Shown here: positions 1,193 to 63,822 of the stretch, in pieces
How positions within the stretch are numbered: position 1 is the first letter of the stretch
Layout: every line of letters begins with the position of its first letter
From: Deltaproteobacteria bacterium
Lineage (GTDB): Bacteria; Desulfobacterota; Desulfuromonadia; Geobacterales; Pseudopelobacteraceae
NCBI GenBank assembly: GCA_021781535.1
Contig: JAJXWO010000014.1
Span: forward strand, 1-64,000
Direction of reading: 5' to 3'
Length of the DNA stretch: 64,000 nucleotides
Position numbers and translations under genes: made by a program
The notes under the pieces: generated by a model
What the model saw: only the letters and a program-made list of their open reading frames with translations
Told to the model about the DNA's origin: nothing
Databases searched by the model: none

Positions 1193-1244
1193 GAATTTTG
1201 GATTTTGGATTGAAATAATTCAACACCCAACATTCAAAATTGCC
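1193..1244. repeat. Degenerate heptamer tract after pgeF
   Basis: About seven consecutive seven-base units (GAATTTT, GGATTTT, GGATTGA, AATAATT, CAACACC, CAACATT, CAAAATT) fill the gap between comM and pgeF. Read on the minus strand, the tract begins GGCAATTTTG directly after the pgeF stop codon. It belongs to the same family as the tracts near 43.5, 43.85, 47.95, 49.85, 50.0, 63.3 and 63.8 kb. Confidence 0.75.
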
Positions 1245-2042
1245 TTACGGTTTTAGCAAAATGAAGCCCATCTGGCGTCCCGACTCATCCTTATCCCTTC
1301 GATACGAGAAGAATTGTTCACTGTGGCAACAGACGCACTGGTCGGATTGCTGAATCGCTTCTGCCGAAAGACCGGCAAGCATCAGCAACTCCCTGTTGGC
1401 AGCGGCCAGATCAAGCTGCCACTTGCCGGGAGCAGTTAGTTCTGCACACGAATCCCAGGCAATTCCACTTTGTATAAATGCCTTCCGAACCGGTTCGTCA
1501 ACTTCATAGCAACATTTTTGGATACAGGGACCGATTGCAGCTTGAAGCCGGGTAGGATCGGAGCCGAACTCCGACTGCATACCGGCGACGGTCTTGGAAA
1601 CCAATCTGCCGGCGGTACCTTTCCAACCGGCATGGACAACGGCAATGACTTTTTTCTCAGGATCACAGAGCAGGATTGGGGCGCAGTCCGCGACACAGAC
1701 ACCGATGATAACGTTCGGTTGATTGGTAATAACCGCATCTCCCTCGACAGAAAGGAAATGGCTGTAATCTTCATTCGGTTCGTTGATCACCAGAATATCA
1801 TTGCCATGAACCTGCCGGGGCGTCACCAGTGCCTCCTGGCTGACCCCGAAAGCGCGGGCAAGCAGACTGCGGTTGCCCTCTACATTTGCCTGCTGGTCCT
1901 GCGTATTCATTCCCAGATTGAGCGAGTTATAGGGAGGGCGCGAAACGCCTTCATGGCGGGTGGTGAAGCCTTGTGTTGAACATGATGCCCCGGGGAAATT
2001 CACTTCGACGTACTGGATACGACCGATACGATTTATCTGCAT
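1245..2042 (-). CDS. pgeF: Purine nucleoside phosphorylase / peptidoglycan editing factor PgeF (YfiH, LACC1 family)
   Basis: A 265-residue laccase-domain (DUF152) protein. The family's metal-site motifs are present: QVHG (His 79), VADCAPILL (Cys 120) and HAGWKG (His 137), followed by AAIGPCIQKCCYEV and a C-terminal CVCCHSEQFFSYRRD block. Family members act on adenosine and inosine, and in E. coli PgeF also keeps L-Ser out of peptidoglycan precursors. ATG 2042 is preferred because GGAGG lies eight bases upstream. An ATG 15 bases earlier overlaps that ribosome site. The product is cytoplasmic. The gene is separated from comM only by a heptamer tract. Confidence 0.9.
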   Translation of the reverse strand: MQINRIGRIQYVEVNFPGASCSTQGFTTRHEGVSRPPYNSLNLGMNTQDQQANVEGNRSLLARAFGVSQEALVTPRQVHGNDILVINEPNEDYSHFLSVEGDAVITNQPNVIIGVCVADCAPILLCDPEKKVIAVVHAGWKGTAGRLVSKTVAGMQSEFGSDPTRLQAAIGPCIQKCCYEVDEPVRKAFIQSGIAWDSCAELTAPGKWQLDLAAANRELLMLAGLSAEAIQQSDQCVCCHSEQFFSYRRDKDESGRQMGFILLKP

Positions 2043-2101
2043 GGTTACTTCCTCCAAAAATACTTTTACCTTCAGGACCTATTTTAGTAAGTTAGAAGTT
2101 G

Positions 2102-2126
2102 TTTTCTGCGCTTTTATAGCAGAAAA
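2102..2126. terminator. Possible hairpin downstream of the DedA gene
   Basis: TTTTCTGC (2102-2109) and GCAGAAAA (2119-2126) can form an 8-bp stem with a 9-base loop just beyond the stop of the minus-strand DedA gene. The A/T ends of the stem could serve as a short U tract, but no long one follows. Confidence 0.35.
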
Positions 2127-2161
2127 TAGTCCCGTTAACGCACGCTCTCTGTTTATTCGGG

Positions 2162-2770
2162 TTAGACCTTGCTGTTCCGGTTGCGCTGCCGCCTGACATA
2201 AACCGCAATCAGAGCGGCACTGAACAGAATAACCCAGAGAAGCGCTTTATGCGAGTACTGCATGATCAGCTGCTGGTTCTCGCCGATCACGTAGCCGATC
2301 AGCGTCAGGATGGTGCACCAGAGACCAGCGCCAAGCAGGGTATACAGGGAGAACTTAAGGTGATTCATTCCGGCCACACCGGCGGGAATTGAGATCAGGT
2401 GACGGATAACCGGCAGGAGCCGGCCGATAAAAGTAGATATCTCCCCGTGCTGGAGAAAAAAACGCTCCACCCGTTCGAATTTGCCGGGCGGAATCAGCAC
2501 ATACTTGCCATATTTAAGGATCAGCGGCCGCCCCAGATAGTGCGAAACATAATAGTTGATATATGCTCCGATCAGACTGCCGGCGGTACCACTCAAAATA
2601 GCAATTGCCAGGTTCATTTTGCCCAGATAGGCCAGATATCCCGCCGGCGGCATCACCAGCTCACTTGGGACCGGAATGATCGAGCTCTCCATGACCATCA
2701 GCAGAAAGATGCCGGGATAGCCCATGGCACCGATCGTGTCCACCAGCCATGTTATCAAGGTGTGTATCAC
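2162..2770 (-). CDS. DedA-family inner-membrane protein
   Basis: A 202-residue membrane protein of the DedA/VTT family, proposed in other bacteria to act as undecaprenyl-phosphate or phospholipid flippases and needed for envelope integrity. Family marks are visible: an acidic residue before a proline pair in MESSIIPVPSE, the re-entrant hydrophobic segments, and GRLLPVIRHLISIPAG, which contains the conserved arginine. The C-terminus is a hydrophobic helix followed by a basic tail (RRQRNRN). GTG 2770 is chosen because GGAGGAG sits six bases upstream. A TTG five codons earlier overlaps that site. It is a single gene that ends before a possible hairpin. Confidence 0.85.
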   Translation of the reverse strand: MIHTLITWLVDTIGAMGYPGIFLLMVMESSIIPVPSELVMPPAGYLAYLGKMNLAIAILSGTAGSLIGAYINYYVSHYLGRPLILKYGKYVLIPPGKFERVERFFLQHGEISTFIGRLLPVIRHLISIPAGVAGMNHLKFSLYTLLGAGLWCTILTLIGYVIGENQQLIMQYSHKALLWVILFSAALIAVYVRRQRNRNSKV

Positions 2771-2848
2771 GCGAAACTCCTCCAAAAATTATGCAGTTGC
2801 CCTTTATACCCCAACTGAACCATTCGGGCAACAGCAGATAGGATATTT

Positions 2849-61885: not shown

Positions 61886-62431
61886 CTACTCAAAACACTC
61901 TATTTGTTTTAAAATAAATCCTTCTGCATCCTTTTTCGCCAAGATTGGATCTCCATCAATCGGCCATTGAATTCCGATATCCGGACAATTCCAGATAATG
62001 CTCCGCTCATGTTCCGGGTACCAATAATCTGTAGTTTTGTAGAGAAACTCCGCGACATCCGATAGCACAACAAAACCATGGGCAAACCCTTCCGGGACCC
62101 ACATCATACGCTTGTTTTCTGCCGACAGCGTCTCACCCACCCATTTCCCAAATGTAGGTGAGCTTTTCCTGATATCAACGGCAACATCAAACACCTCTCC
62201 AACTGTCACCCGTACCAGCTTCCCCTGTGGGTGCTGAATCTGATAGTGTAGCCCACGCAGTACGTTTTTAACCGATCGAGAATGATTATCCTGTACAAAG
62301 TTACGCTTCAGGCCGGTTGCTTCCTCGAAAACGCGGTTATTGAAGCTCTCAAAAAAGAACCCCCGCTCATCGCCAAACACCCTAGGTTCAAAGAGCACTA
62401 CATCTGGGATACTTAACTTGGTTACCTGCAT
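61886..62431 (-). CDS. rfbC: dTDP-4-dehydrorhamnose 3,5-epimerase
   Basis: A 181-residue cupin. Catalytic His in LRGLHYQIQHPQGKLVRV, the acidic residue in FDVAVDIRKSSPTFGKW and catalytic Tyr in LYKTTDYWYPEHE are present. It makes dTDP-4-keto-L-rhamnose from the RfbB product. It starts one base after the rfbA stop. No rfbD follows in the window, so the last reductase must be encoded elsewhere, perhaps beyond rfbB. Confidence 0.93.
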   Translation of the reverse strand: MQVTKLSIPDVVLFEPRVFGDERGFFFESFNNRVFEEATGLKRNFVQDNHSRSVKNVLRGLHYQIQHPQGKLVRVTVGEVFDVAVDIRKSSPTFGKWVGETLSAENKRMMWVPEGFAHGFVVLSDVAEFLYKTTDYWYPEHERSIIWNCPDIGIQWPIDGDPILAKKDAEGFILKQIECFE

Positions 62432-62432
62432 G

Positions 62433-63371
62433 TCAGTACACCTTCTGCTTTAATAGTCCCATCAGGTATTTACCATAACCATTCTTGGCTAACGGACTGG
62501 CAAGCCGGTTAAGCTTCTCGTCATCAATCCACCCGTGCCTCCAGGCTATTTCCTCCGGACAGGCCACTTTCAGCCCCTGGCGGTTCTCCAAAGTAGACAC
62601 AAACTGGCTTGCTTCCAACAGACTCTCATGGGTGCCGGTATCGAGCCAGGCATAGCCGCGGCCCATGATCTCCACTGAAAGTTGTCCTTGCTGAAGATAG
62701 AGTCGGTTCAGGTCGGTAATTTCCAGCTCACCGCGTGGTGACGGCTTCAGATTTTTAGCAAGTTCAACCACCTGTTGATCATAGAAGTACAAACCGGTAA
62801 CCGCATAATTGGATTTAGGCTGTTCGGGTTTTTCTTCGAGAGAGATGACCTTGCCTGATGCTTCAAATTCAGCTACGCCGTAACGCTCCGGATCTTGTAC
62901 ATGATAGGCAAAGACACTTGCGCCATGTTCCCGCTGGTAGGCATTGGCCAACAAATGATGAAAATCATGCCCGTAGAAAATATTATCACCTAATACCAGC
63001 GCGCAACGATCTTGGCCAATGAACTCCTCACCAATGATGAACGCCTGCGCCAGGCCATCCGGGCTAGGCTGAACGGCGTACTGCAGAGCAAGACCCCACT
63101 GGCTGCCATCACCAAGAAGTTGTTCGAAACGGGGCGTGTCCTGCGGAGTGGAGATAACAAGAATGTCGCGTATCCCGGCTAGCATGAGGGTGCTGAGCGG
63201 GTAGTAGATCATTGGCTTGTCGAAGACCGGCAGCAACTGTTTTGAGACGGCAAGTGTAGCGGGATGCAGACGTGAACCGGTTCCACCGGCGAGAATGATT
63301 CCTTTTATCTTCTGGCTAGTGGCGAGTTGCGAGTTGCTATTAGCAAGTTGTGAGTTGCCAGTTGTCTTCAT
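62433..63371 (-). CDS. rfbA: Glucose-1-phosphate thymidylyltransferase with a repeat-derived N-terminus
   Basis: A 312-residue Rfb[63 protein letters not shown] and a C-terminal [10 protein letters not shown]. It makes dTDP-glucose from glucose-1-phosphate. The first 20 residues, before [10 protein letters not shown], are absent from usual RfbA proteins and are encoded by a heptamer tract ([16 protein letters not shown]). No other ATG is available before the P-loop. The start overlaps the four-helix-bundle gene stop (ATGA). Confidence 0.92.
63313..63369. repeat. Heptamer tract inside the rfbA 5' end
   Basis: Consecutive units GAGTTGC, GAGTTGC, TATTAGC, AAGTTGT, GAGTTGC, CAGTTGT keep a strict seven-base period and are translated as the N-terminal extension of RfbA. 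Confidence 0.75.
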
Positions 63372-63745
63372 TTTTTCTCTACGTCTACTTTCAGTTTTTT
63401 TGTGAAACCGGACAACAACTTTCCTACAGTATCGATCAGATCTTGCAAGCTTTGGTTCTCTGTCAGATAACCGAGCATGGCGGCAATCTGAATGTGCGTG
63501 TCAAGTTCACTTAAAGAGCCTCGAGCGATACTCAGAAAGTGCAGGTACTCTTTGTCTCCGGAACGCGCGGCCCCTTCGGCGATATTGGCCGGAATGGATA
63601 CGGCGGCACGGCGCATCTGATTGGTCAGACCATAAATCTCTTGGGCAGGAAAGGTCGAGCTGACAGCATAGATTTCTTTTACCAGTACCATCGACTGTTG
63701 CCAGACGTCCAGCTTCTGATGTGGTTTTATATTTTCTATTGCCAT
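63368..63745 (-). CDS. Four-helix-bundle (S23/IVP-like) protein
   Basis: A 125-residue helical protein of the family first seen in 23S rRNA intervening sequences: [70 protein letters not shown]. Structures of relatives are pentameric barrels; the related Avd protein serves diversity-generating retroelements. The cellular role of stand-alone copies is unknown. It sits between rfbB and rfbA with heptamer tracts on both sides and is coupled to rfbA by ATGA. Confidence 0.85.
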
Positions 63746-63754
63746 AAGCCATTT

Positions 63755-63822
63755 GCCCCTTGCTAGTTGCTAGTTGCGGCCTGCCCTTGCTACTCGCCAA
63801 TTGCCACTCGCTACTTGCCCAA
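63755..63822. repeat. Heptamer tract between rfbB and the four-helix-bundle gene
   Basis: Units such as TTGCTAG, TTGCTAG, GCTACTC, GCCAATT, GCCACTC, GCTACTT follow a seven-base period and include the rfbB stop codon. On the minus strand the tract ends nine bases before the next ATG. Confidence 0.75.

Follow-up and report, generated by a model that had tools for sequence, protein, structure and literature searches.

The window analysed here, a 64,000-nucleotide stretch at the start of contig JAJXWO010000014.1 of a draft deltaproteobacterial genome (GCA_021781535.1), contains degenerate tracts of seven-base units which lie directly behind the stop codons of several genes. An earlier note on this DNA had pointed to five such tracts after minus-strand genes (pgeF, wzz, wzi, a WecA-like gene and rfbB), each at 0-1 base from the stop or overlapping it, and had suggested either insertion guided by 3' gene ends or repeat growth starting there. 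We describe many of the tracts as parts of inverted pairs, one of which encloses a gene for a 23S rRNA-intervening sequence protein (IVP), and argue that they are probably the arms of selfish hairpin insertions of the intervening sequence (IVS) type, mostly gene-less, that lie behind stop codons.

Tracts and arms in the window

The genes upstream of the tracts are identified by Pfam matches to Wzz, Wzi, Glycos_transf_4 (the WecA-like gene) and Cu-oxidase_4 (pgeF), and rfbB by only a 62-residue 3' piece which matches GDP_Man_Dehyd; the names comM/yifB, cheY, cheA, dapF, VanZ and rmlA, and those of the flagellar genes, are our assumptions from the look of the proteins. Read directly, all five tracts stand where the earlier note had placed them, and its stop distances hold as well: those of pgeF, wzz and wzi open 0-1 nt past the stop with GGCAATTT, and in the WecA-like gene and rfbB the stop itself lies inside the tract.

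At pgeF the stop codon TAA (1245-1247) is followed directly by GGCAATTTTGAATG, the 5' arm of a gene-less hairpin that fills the junction to comM (yifB) at 1181-1244 and whose 3' arm reads AATCCAAAATCCAAAATTCACC; counted from the stop, the two arms occupy +2 to +28 and +33 to +59. Behind wzz (TGA at 43881, then A-GGCAATTTAACGGCAATATTGAATTCTGGATTTTGAATTTTGAATG) the 5' arm covers 43832-43880, and the 3' arm of the spacer (43458-43502) abuts the remnant of a VanZ-like gene (a gene present behind wzz in relatives G026, G018, G019, G028 and G016; G, C and L numbers are our handles for genomes, contigs and loci). Behind wzi (TGA at 48220, then A-GGCAATTTTGGATTTTAAA) the 5' arm lies at 48198-48219, additional TTTTGAA units at 48008-48030 and the 3' arm at 47916-47961, 28 nt before the next called start. 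The WecA-like gene ends ATG CAA TTT TGA, with the stop at 50000-50002 inside a 5' arm (49963-50007) that supplies the last codons CAA TTT as well as the TGA, and 3'-arm pieces made of ATCCAAAATCCA units follow toward the next gene (49820-49926). In these three larger spacers the arm pieces are split by other dispersed repeats or by a gene remnant. All the features listed, like those at rfbB, read on the minus strand.

The fifth tract is built from a different heptamer (GCGAGTA/GCAACTA). It begins inside the rfbB stop (TAG, 63811-63813) as a 5' arm spanning 63746-63813, and is followed by an IVP gene of 125 codons (63368-63745; four-helix bundle; Pfam PF05635, E 6.1e-38). From 3 nt past the IVP stop a sixth tract (63318-63364) forms the 3' arm; the two tracts which bracket the gene are mutually inverted, with an inverted score of 18 against a shuffled maximum of 11. 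The sixth tract is read as extending the next gene, a nucleotidyltransferase (PF00483) that we take to be rmlA-like, at its N-terminus. Also adjacent to a stop, it was absent from the earlier note, as were the inverted second arms and the pieces away from stops (43458-43502, 47916-47961, 48008-48030 and 49820-49926). The association with minus-strand genes is true of the window, but the strand is not special: tracts on C21 follow plus-strand genes.

Several neighbouring features may be recorded here. The VanZ-like remnant lies at about 43405-43460; in relatives the gene stands behind wzz, and in G029 the end of wzz appears to be fused to the VanZ-like remnant. Another dispersed palindrome, about 165 bases long (GGTTAACCGCCGATGTACGCCGA...) and present in many copies in the genus, sits between the heptamer arms at 48029-48215 and 43545-43790. 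Matches to the tract pattern TTTTGRATTTTGRATT cluster in one region of the window (43000-50000), as they do in G028:C116, G008:C208, G006:C39, G035:C47, G007:C63 and G025:C15, and in some genomes the cluster is the wzz/wzi polysaccharide locus. At Rfam gathering thresholds only group II intron pieces matched in the window, their domains lying at 29367-31182 around a minus-strand open reading frame (ORF) at 29710-30840. An intergenic sequence of about 80 bases (2082-2165), ending at the stop of the 2162 gene, has matches in many genomes of the genus among the matches listed, and none in Rfam at those thresholds.

Placement between stop and start codons

The survey beyond the window covered draft metagenome-assembled genomes, including 1.085 Mb of the window's own 3.80-Mb genome (G000), with 1,793 genes called by a purpose-written caller in 1.96 Mb of G000 and related genomes. 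G000 belongs to an uncultured bacterium of the Geobacteraceae/Desulfuromonadales, whose PgeF is 98% identical to the nearest named record. Many G000 contigs were chosen for matches to TTTTGRATTTTGRATT, which inflates the G000 tract count, and the stretches of relatives were mostly picked for tracts, which biases tract counts but not the place of a tract within its spacer. Over the whole G000 genome the pattern, with up to two mismatches, has 47 matches, against 1 for the reversed pattern. When periodicity was scored as at least 15 matches in a 21-base window, period 7 gave 11 intergenic tracts in the inflated 1.085-Mb sample and 0.9 in dinucleotide shuffles, and other periods from 4 to 15 gave 1-5 tracts against 0.8-1.7; a stricter setting with a 28-base window returned just 4 intergenic tracts, and the setting was relaxed for that reason. 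The shuffles rule out chance or AT-richness as the source of the period-7 tracts.

Many tracts are inverted, with TTTTGRA units leading away from the stop and their complement leading toward the next gene, most clearly at cheY-cheA, at the flagellar locus and at pgeF-comM; what had appeared as a tract after a stop is thus a hairpin's 5' arm, with the matching 3' arm some 10-30 nt before the next start. The palindrome has a fixed polarity, for which reason the stop side shows TTTTGRA and the start side TYCAAAA. TTTTGAA contains a TGA, which successive units bring into every frame within 21 nt, so that a copy lying in the last codons can itself supply a new stop and the protein then ends in ...QF*.

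The 95 tracts of the TTTTGRA family are distributed unevenly: 74 lie in codirectional spacers, 5 in convergent and 1 in divergent ones, with 6 inside called genes and 9 at sequence ends. Counted as distinct spacers, 57 are codirectional, 4 convergent and 1 divergent; divergent spacers hold 22% of the intergenic bases. The earlier proposal was to fall if tracts showed no enrichment near stops, and they are enriched: of the 54 sense-first tracts, those with TTTTGRA from the stop side, 26 start between -15 and +8 nt of the stop, whereas placing tracts at random within the same spacers would put 7.0 there, and none of 20,000 simulations reached the observed number. Antisense-only tracts are never found there (0/20; Fisher 5e-5 against the sense-first set), and 8 of the 20 lie 9-30 nt before a start, where 2.8 are expected. 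The anchoring is also seen in spacers with at least 100 free nt (13/36 against 1.2 expected) and with 300 (6/22 against 0.4), when one tract is taken per upstream gene family (about 14 of 29 families against 4.1) and in G000 alone (4/7).

The arms are AT-rich, and the 3' arm points toward the ribosome-binding site (RBS) of the next gene; judged by reading, with no terminator scan, they lack the GC-rich stem and U run of an intrinsic terminator. The same stop-to-start geometry recurs in Geobacteraceae with a palindrome that is not heptameric at all, CACAGAG, of period 8, and this rules out stop-specific recognition of TTTTGRA as the sole cause of the placement. Palindromes of this kind were seen at G000:C21:130021-130153, G000:C15:70123-70259, L057:433-641 and in other stretches.

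Filled and empty alleles at orthologous junctions

The comparison of relatives lacking a tract, which the earlier note had recommended, is possible because such syntenic relatives exist, and filled alleles differ from them by a block between the last codons of one gene and the RBS or leader of the next. The pgeF-comM junction, with states assigned by eye in 31 genomes and then used for a tree, carries TTTTGAA-type repeats in 10 genomes, TGAG-type in 3, ATGAA-type in 3, a period-9 repeat in 1, other sequence in 3 and an inserted gene in 3, and is empty in the remaining 8, where the spacer is at most 15 nt or the genes overlap. The tree requires 18 state changes, of which 7 turn a filled junction into an empty one or the reverse and 6 exchange one repeat class for another; sister genomes differ as empty versus TTTTGAA twice (100/100 support), as ATGAA versus TGAG (98/96) and, on very short branches, as ATGAA versus period 9 (94/89). 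Among 27 readable orthologs of cheY-cheA (of 30 loci returned), 10 have only 4-5 nt from stop to start, and the other 17 have 42-507 nt with TTTTGAA hairpins, a GAGATGAG hairpin, other palindromes, an IVP gene or nothing evident; two close alleles of 89 and 82 nt differ by exactly one heptamer step.

At two further loci the boundary can be located more closely. In the flagellar operon, compared in 12 relatives, ten have the stop and a few bases and then a conserved leader (about 8 nt past the stop), G006 and G000 have some 60-70 extra bases between stop and leader, and G026 resembles a deletion scar. Behind the dapF-like gene (8 relatives) two empty alleles overlap the next gene as TAATG, and of seven filled alleles, including that of G000, three end CAA TTT TGA, one ends CAA TAT TGA and three have their stop a few bases before the arm; the insertion here lies upstream of the original stop and in some alleles supplies a new one. 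GCAA precedes the arm in many filled alleles and is already present in 5 of 10 flagellar and 2 of 8 pgeF empties, so that part of the signature '(G)GCAATTT' may belong to the target and not to the element.

Since many of the tract-less relatives have tight junctions (4-5 nt at cheY-cheA, at most 29 nt at pgeF-comM), the hairpin must have come, or left, at the gene end, and insertion rather than loss would account for most of the differences. Tight junctions make up about 2% of the tolerated intergenic slots in G000 (1,072/53,008, a figure that depends on assumptions) but are the empty state at 4 of the 6 loci where one is visible (pgeF, cheY, the dapF-like gene and wzz, though not wzi and the flagellar operon; p 2e-6, or p 0.009 if the tight share is set at 17%), which favours some preference. 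It is against this excess that simple tolerance has to be set, that is, the view that hairpins may originate or insert at any place and that only those lying between a stop and the following RBS survive selection, neither targeting nor any link to IVP being needed. Where empty relatives exist the insert does occupy the few unconstrained bases, tracts are rare inside genes (6/95) and in divergent spacers, and the unrelated CACAGAG palindrome shares the geometry, all of which such tolerance would explain. Yet it would not predict the tight-junction excess or the anchoring in spacers with 300 free nt, and it leaves the association with IVP genes, described below, unexplained; we regard it as plausible, but on balance lean against it.

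The same excess would follow from an insertion machinery drawn to the 3' ends of genes, which it might recognise by exposed single strands or by R-loops behind the last ribosome, irrespective of the repeat sequence, and the presence of different repeat families at one site in sister genomes (the changes on the pgeF tree, including those at 100/100 and 98/96 support) fits this. No enzyme or footprint was found for it, however, and the dapF-like insert lies upstream of the old stop, which makes such a machinery possible but rather doubtful. The guidance by 3' gene ends suggested in the earlier note is accordingly borne out as regards insertion at that place, in the filled and empty alleles and in the tight-junction excess, and not as regards the stop codon as the guide; the latter is not established because the CACAGAG palindrome has the same geometry, the dapF-like insertion lies upstream of the old stop and tolerance of a stem between genes offers an alternative.

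Its other suggestion, repeat growth from the stop as the origin of the tracts, is not supported, since the tracts come in inverted pairs which can enclose a gene; copy number does change afterwards, by a single 7-nt unit. Plain polymerase slippage on AT-rich spacers, producing simple sequence repeats, is highly improbable as the origin: slippage alone yields neither inverted arms, nor a defined gene in the loop, nor clean empty alleles. Heptamers are common simple repeats in bacteria (PMC4692102, PMC4679880; here and below, statements on cited papers hold for the accessible parts of those papers), and the single 7-nt step between close alleles makes slippage the likely cause of changes in length.

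A further possibility is that the hairpins are functional, being kept by selection for effects on translation or mRNA decay in the manner of E. coli REPs near stops, of which 446 of 4,072 lie within 15 nt of a stop (PMC12306157). The position is similar, and a junction often keeps a hairpin through a change of sequence class, but presence flips between sister genomes and, within a single genus, genomes have anywhere from 0 to 90 pattern matches, so that a regulatory role is unlikely to be the main cause of the distribution.

IVP genes between periodic arms

Genes like that of the window recur between arms elsewhere in Geobacteraceae. When the examined Geobacteraceae DNA was searched with IVP proteins, two further loci appeared, both between heptamer arms: L079, in the pgeF-comM junction of one genome, and L332, in the cheY-cheA junction of another. 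Both junctions are occupied by gene-less hairpins in other genomes. With a profile built from 15 IVPs, three additional loci and one decayed copy came to light, all between TTTTGRA arms, bringing the loci enclosed by arms to 7 of 7 (a weak profile match at L045, E 0.24, was left out of the counts). The decayed copy, L282, survives as two pieces (E 5.7e-6 and 0.0018); its 431-nt spacer had been singled out beforehand for its size and for arms at both ends. Four of the seven, L173, L253, L282 and L286, belong to loci retrieved because of their tracts, so that their flanks cannot serve as an independent test; this selection does not affect the window, L079 and L332. PF05635 is encoded in the window, L079, L332, L173 and L286, and not in the gene-less pgeF, wzz, wzi and WecA-like hairpins. 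In the L286 ORF (from 8339, 129 codons) the IVP frame runs into the 3' heptamer arm and acquires a repeat-encoded C-terminal tail.

Periodic arms accompany IVP genes across phyla. IVP relatives were taken from plasmids (30 records, mostly cyanobacterial, 20 of them fetched) and from IMG/VR, both sets being independent of the tract-based choice of G000 contigs and Geobacteraceae loci, and their 130-nt flanks were scored for period 7 or 8 (at least 15 of 21). Most of the plasmid genes stand in junctions, as at cas6-cas4, at cas10-cmr3 and among transfer genes, and each has a repeat of its own, such as GGGAGTA, AACAGGG, GAGTCAG or AAAAGCT. The cas6-cas4 junction holds an IVP gene in two cyanobacterial plasmids, L368 and L376, whose repeats there differ. 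In a set of 22 loci (3 from Geobacteraceae and 19 from plasmids, an identical pair being counted once) tracts occur in either flank of 21, in both flanks of 14, upstream of 19 and downstream of 16; the corresponding values for 33 distinct IMG/VR ORFs, some nearly identical, are 25, 11, 23 and 13. Among control gene flanks in G000, 8 of 969 upstream and 11 of 964 downstream ones reach this score; in three stretches of Nostoc plasmids the numbers are 2 and 5, each of 96. The arms are inverted beyond all shuffles at 14 of the 22 loci and at 21 of the 27 IMG/VR loci tested (of the 33), and the first periodic window lies -18 to +13 nt from the upstream stop in 10 of 14 codirectional plasmid loci.

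That the genes enclosed by arms are IVP genes also bears on whether the tracts are REPIN-like elements moved by RAYTs, which are IS200-like tyrosine transposases (PMC3116915). Like REPs and REPINs, some of which lie near stops, the tracts are palindromic, dispersed and intergenic, and RAYT-like genes occur on the tract-bearing contigs G033:C94 and G035:C11 (NF047646, 79.8 and 76.8 bits, just below the cut-off of 80); the RAYT-like transposase genes at L284:390-1049 and L170:1099-2037, on tract-bearing contigs, are recorded as just short of that cut-off. REPINs have GTAG or a similar tetranucleotide at the foot; the tetranucleotide before many of the arms here, GCAA, stands in some empty alleles too. 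But heptamer arms are not described in the accessible parts of the REP literature (PMC12306157, PMC3116915), Y1_Tnp and tract counts are uncorrelated over 37 genomes (rho 0.24, p 0.15), and three draft genomes without a Y1_Tnp match carry 9, 10 and 22 pattern matches. With the RAYT link thus unsupported here, this origin appears very unlikely.

The closest known system is the 23S IVS (helix 45) of Coxiella burnetii, in which 2-3 tandem heptamers, variable between strains, precede the start codon of S23p and RNase III cuts in the stem (PMC4990558). The likeness extends to an IVP gene in the loop of complementary arms, to variable heptamers starting from the RNase III site and to a position where continuity of the RNA is dispensable, and it is on this ground that we read the window tracts as IVS-type arms in protein operons. 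Unlike the 23S IVS, the elements described here occupy protein-operon junctions, in many copies which mostly lack a gene; they have the PF05635 gene and the complementary terminal arms, but not the location in 23S rRNA, and are for that reason not filed as 23S IVSs. A full element would comprise a 5' arm of 7- or 8-base repeats, the four-helix IVP gene and an inverted 3' arm, and most copies seen in the genus are gene-less hairpins of roughly 60-90 nt, presumably derived from gene-bearing ones, that lie flush behind the upstream stop and end some 10-30 nt before the next start. Junctions would suit such an element because an additional RNA stem, even if removed from the mRNA, leaves both reading frames intact, much as rRNA IVSs sit where RNA continuity is dispensable. 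The hairpins would be mobile, and their arms may be processed in the RNA. Most of the scanned IVP proteins have sub-threshold matches to PF22296 (bAvd), which we take to be the Avd accessory protein of diversity-generating retroelements; this is a hint, and no more, from sequence that the life cycle might be linked to RNA. By sequence, solved relatives of the IVP are 2rld and 2gsc (XCC0516), the latter, going by its name, presumably from Xanthomonas.

A number of observations weigh against interpreting the tracts as IVS-type insertions. Over half of the sense-first tracts (28/54) lie away from any stop; RNA folding z-scores are modest for the TTTTGAA alleles of cheY-cheA (-2.2 to 0.1) and range from -5.1 to -0.1 at pgeF-comM, which points to weak or decayed stems in many cases. 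The 1.085 Mb of G000 yielded a single IVP gene, and most G000 hairpins thus have no gene-bearing partner in the sample. No tract reaches the threshold at 8 of the 33 IMG/VR loci and at one of the 22 (L370, where the repeat lies farther out); L373, L374, L385 and L387 have period 8 instead of 7, and L378 barely passes. These sets, with their tract-chosen stretches and near-identical IMG/VR loci, are not independent draws. The same junctions also hold non-heptameric hairpins (period 9 in L086, other palindromes in L330 and L334, and CACAGAG with its period of 8), and some of the longer cheY-cheA spacers show no evident hairpin (L328, L331, L338). A target-site duplication, sought by eye in the cheY-cheA, flagellar and dapF-like alleles, was not found consistently, and no transposition was observed.

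Heptamers in other bacteria offer partial parallels. In the Nostoc trnL intron the P6b stem consists of degenerate heptamers of class I (TDNGATT) or class II (NNTGAGT), one class replacing the other at one site (PMC4476775), a turnover like that at pgeF-comM. TTGGATT fits class I and TTGAATT departs from it by one base, while GTTGAGR and GATGAGR only resemble class II, the last T being different; the present tracts lie at gene ends, outside the tRNA-Leu intron, and the accessible part of that paper speaks of no gene in the P6b loop. Xanthomonas (GGGAATC) and Nostoc (GGGGA(C/T)T) heptamers lie mostly 0-50 bp past a stop on the coding strand, overlaps included, or upstream on the other strand, with 70 and 75 inverted pairs in two Xanthomonas genomes; they differ in sequence, and the accessible part of the report proposes no enclosed gene and reports no general association with mobile elements (PMC4692102). 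The TAACTGA repeats of Beggiatoaceae, cyanobacteria and Bacteroidetes are likewise intergenic heptamers of patchy spread, but most of those in the Guaymas genome immediately precede a start codon, and nearly all are direct (PMC4679880). Geobacter metallireducens, of the same family as the tracts described here, has multicopy heptamers, GGACCGG x4 and MTYCTGA x5, which were taken as regulatory elements; their positions relative to stops are not given in the part of the paper accessible (PMC2700814). In the open-access literature we found no title or abstract that links IVP genes with heptamers in general, although heptamers are noted in the Coxiella paper for the IVS described there. To our knowledge three findings are new: that in Geobacteraceae the tracts are anchored at stops, with empty and filled alleles, that repeat classes turn over at orthologous junctions, and that IVP genes are associated with such repeats in general.

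More speculatively, one might imagine a widespread and overlooked class of selfish elements, a repeat stem of 7-8 bases with an IVP gene or nothing inside and its own repeat in each copy, that settles behind stops in operons as well as in the genes of plasmids and phages and in rRNA. Such an element would be either excised from the RNA or tolerated there, and would spread by an RNA-linked step in which the IVP, as a relative of Avd, has a role; the heptamers of cyanobacteria, Xanthomonas and Beggiatoaceae and the Nostoc trnL stem would then be its footprints. We put this forward tentatively, as an idea with the greater chance of being wrong.

Heptamer repeats have been reported piecemeal in unrelated bacteria, with no agreed explanation. 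Orphan IVP/S23 genes are widely annotated, and we know of no function for them. The present data join the two, in that IVP genes usually have arms of 7-8 base repeats, mostly inverted, and a junction with gene-less arms may hold an IVP gene in a related genome. This link makes the origin of the repeats testable and explains some odd C-termini (...QF*) and N-terminal extensions, and the many natural empty and filled alleles may serve for studying how operons tolerate insertions.

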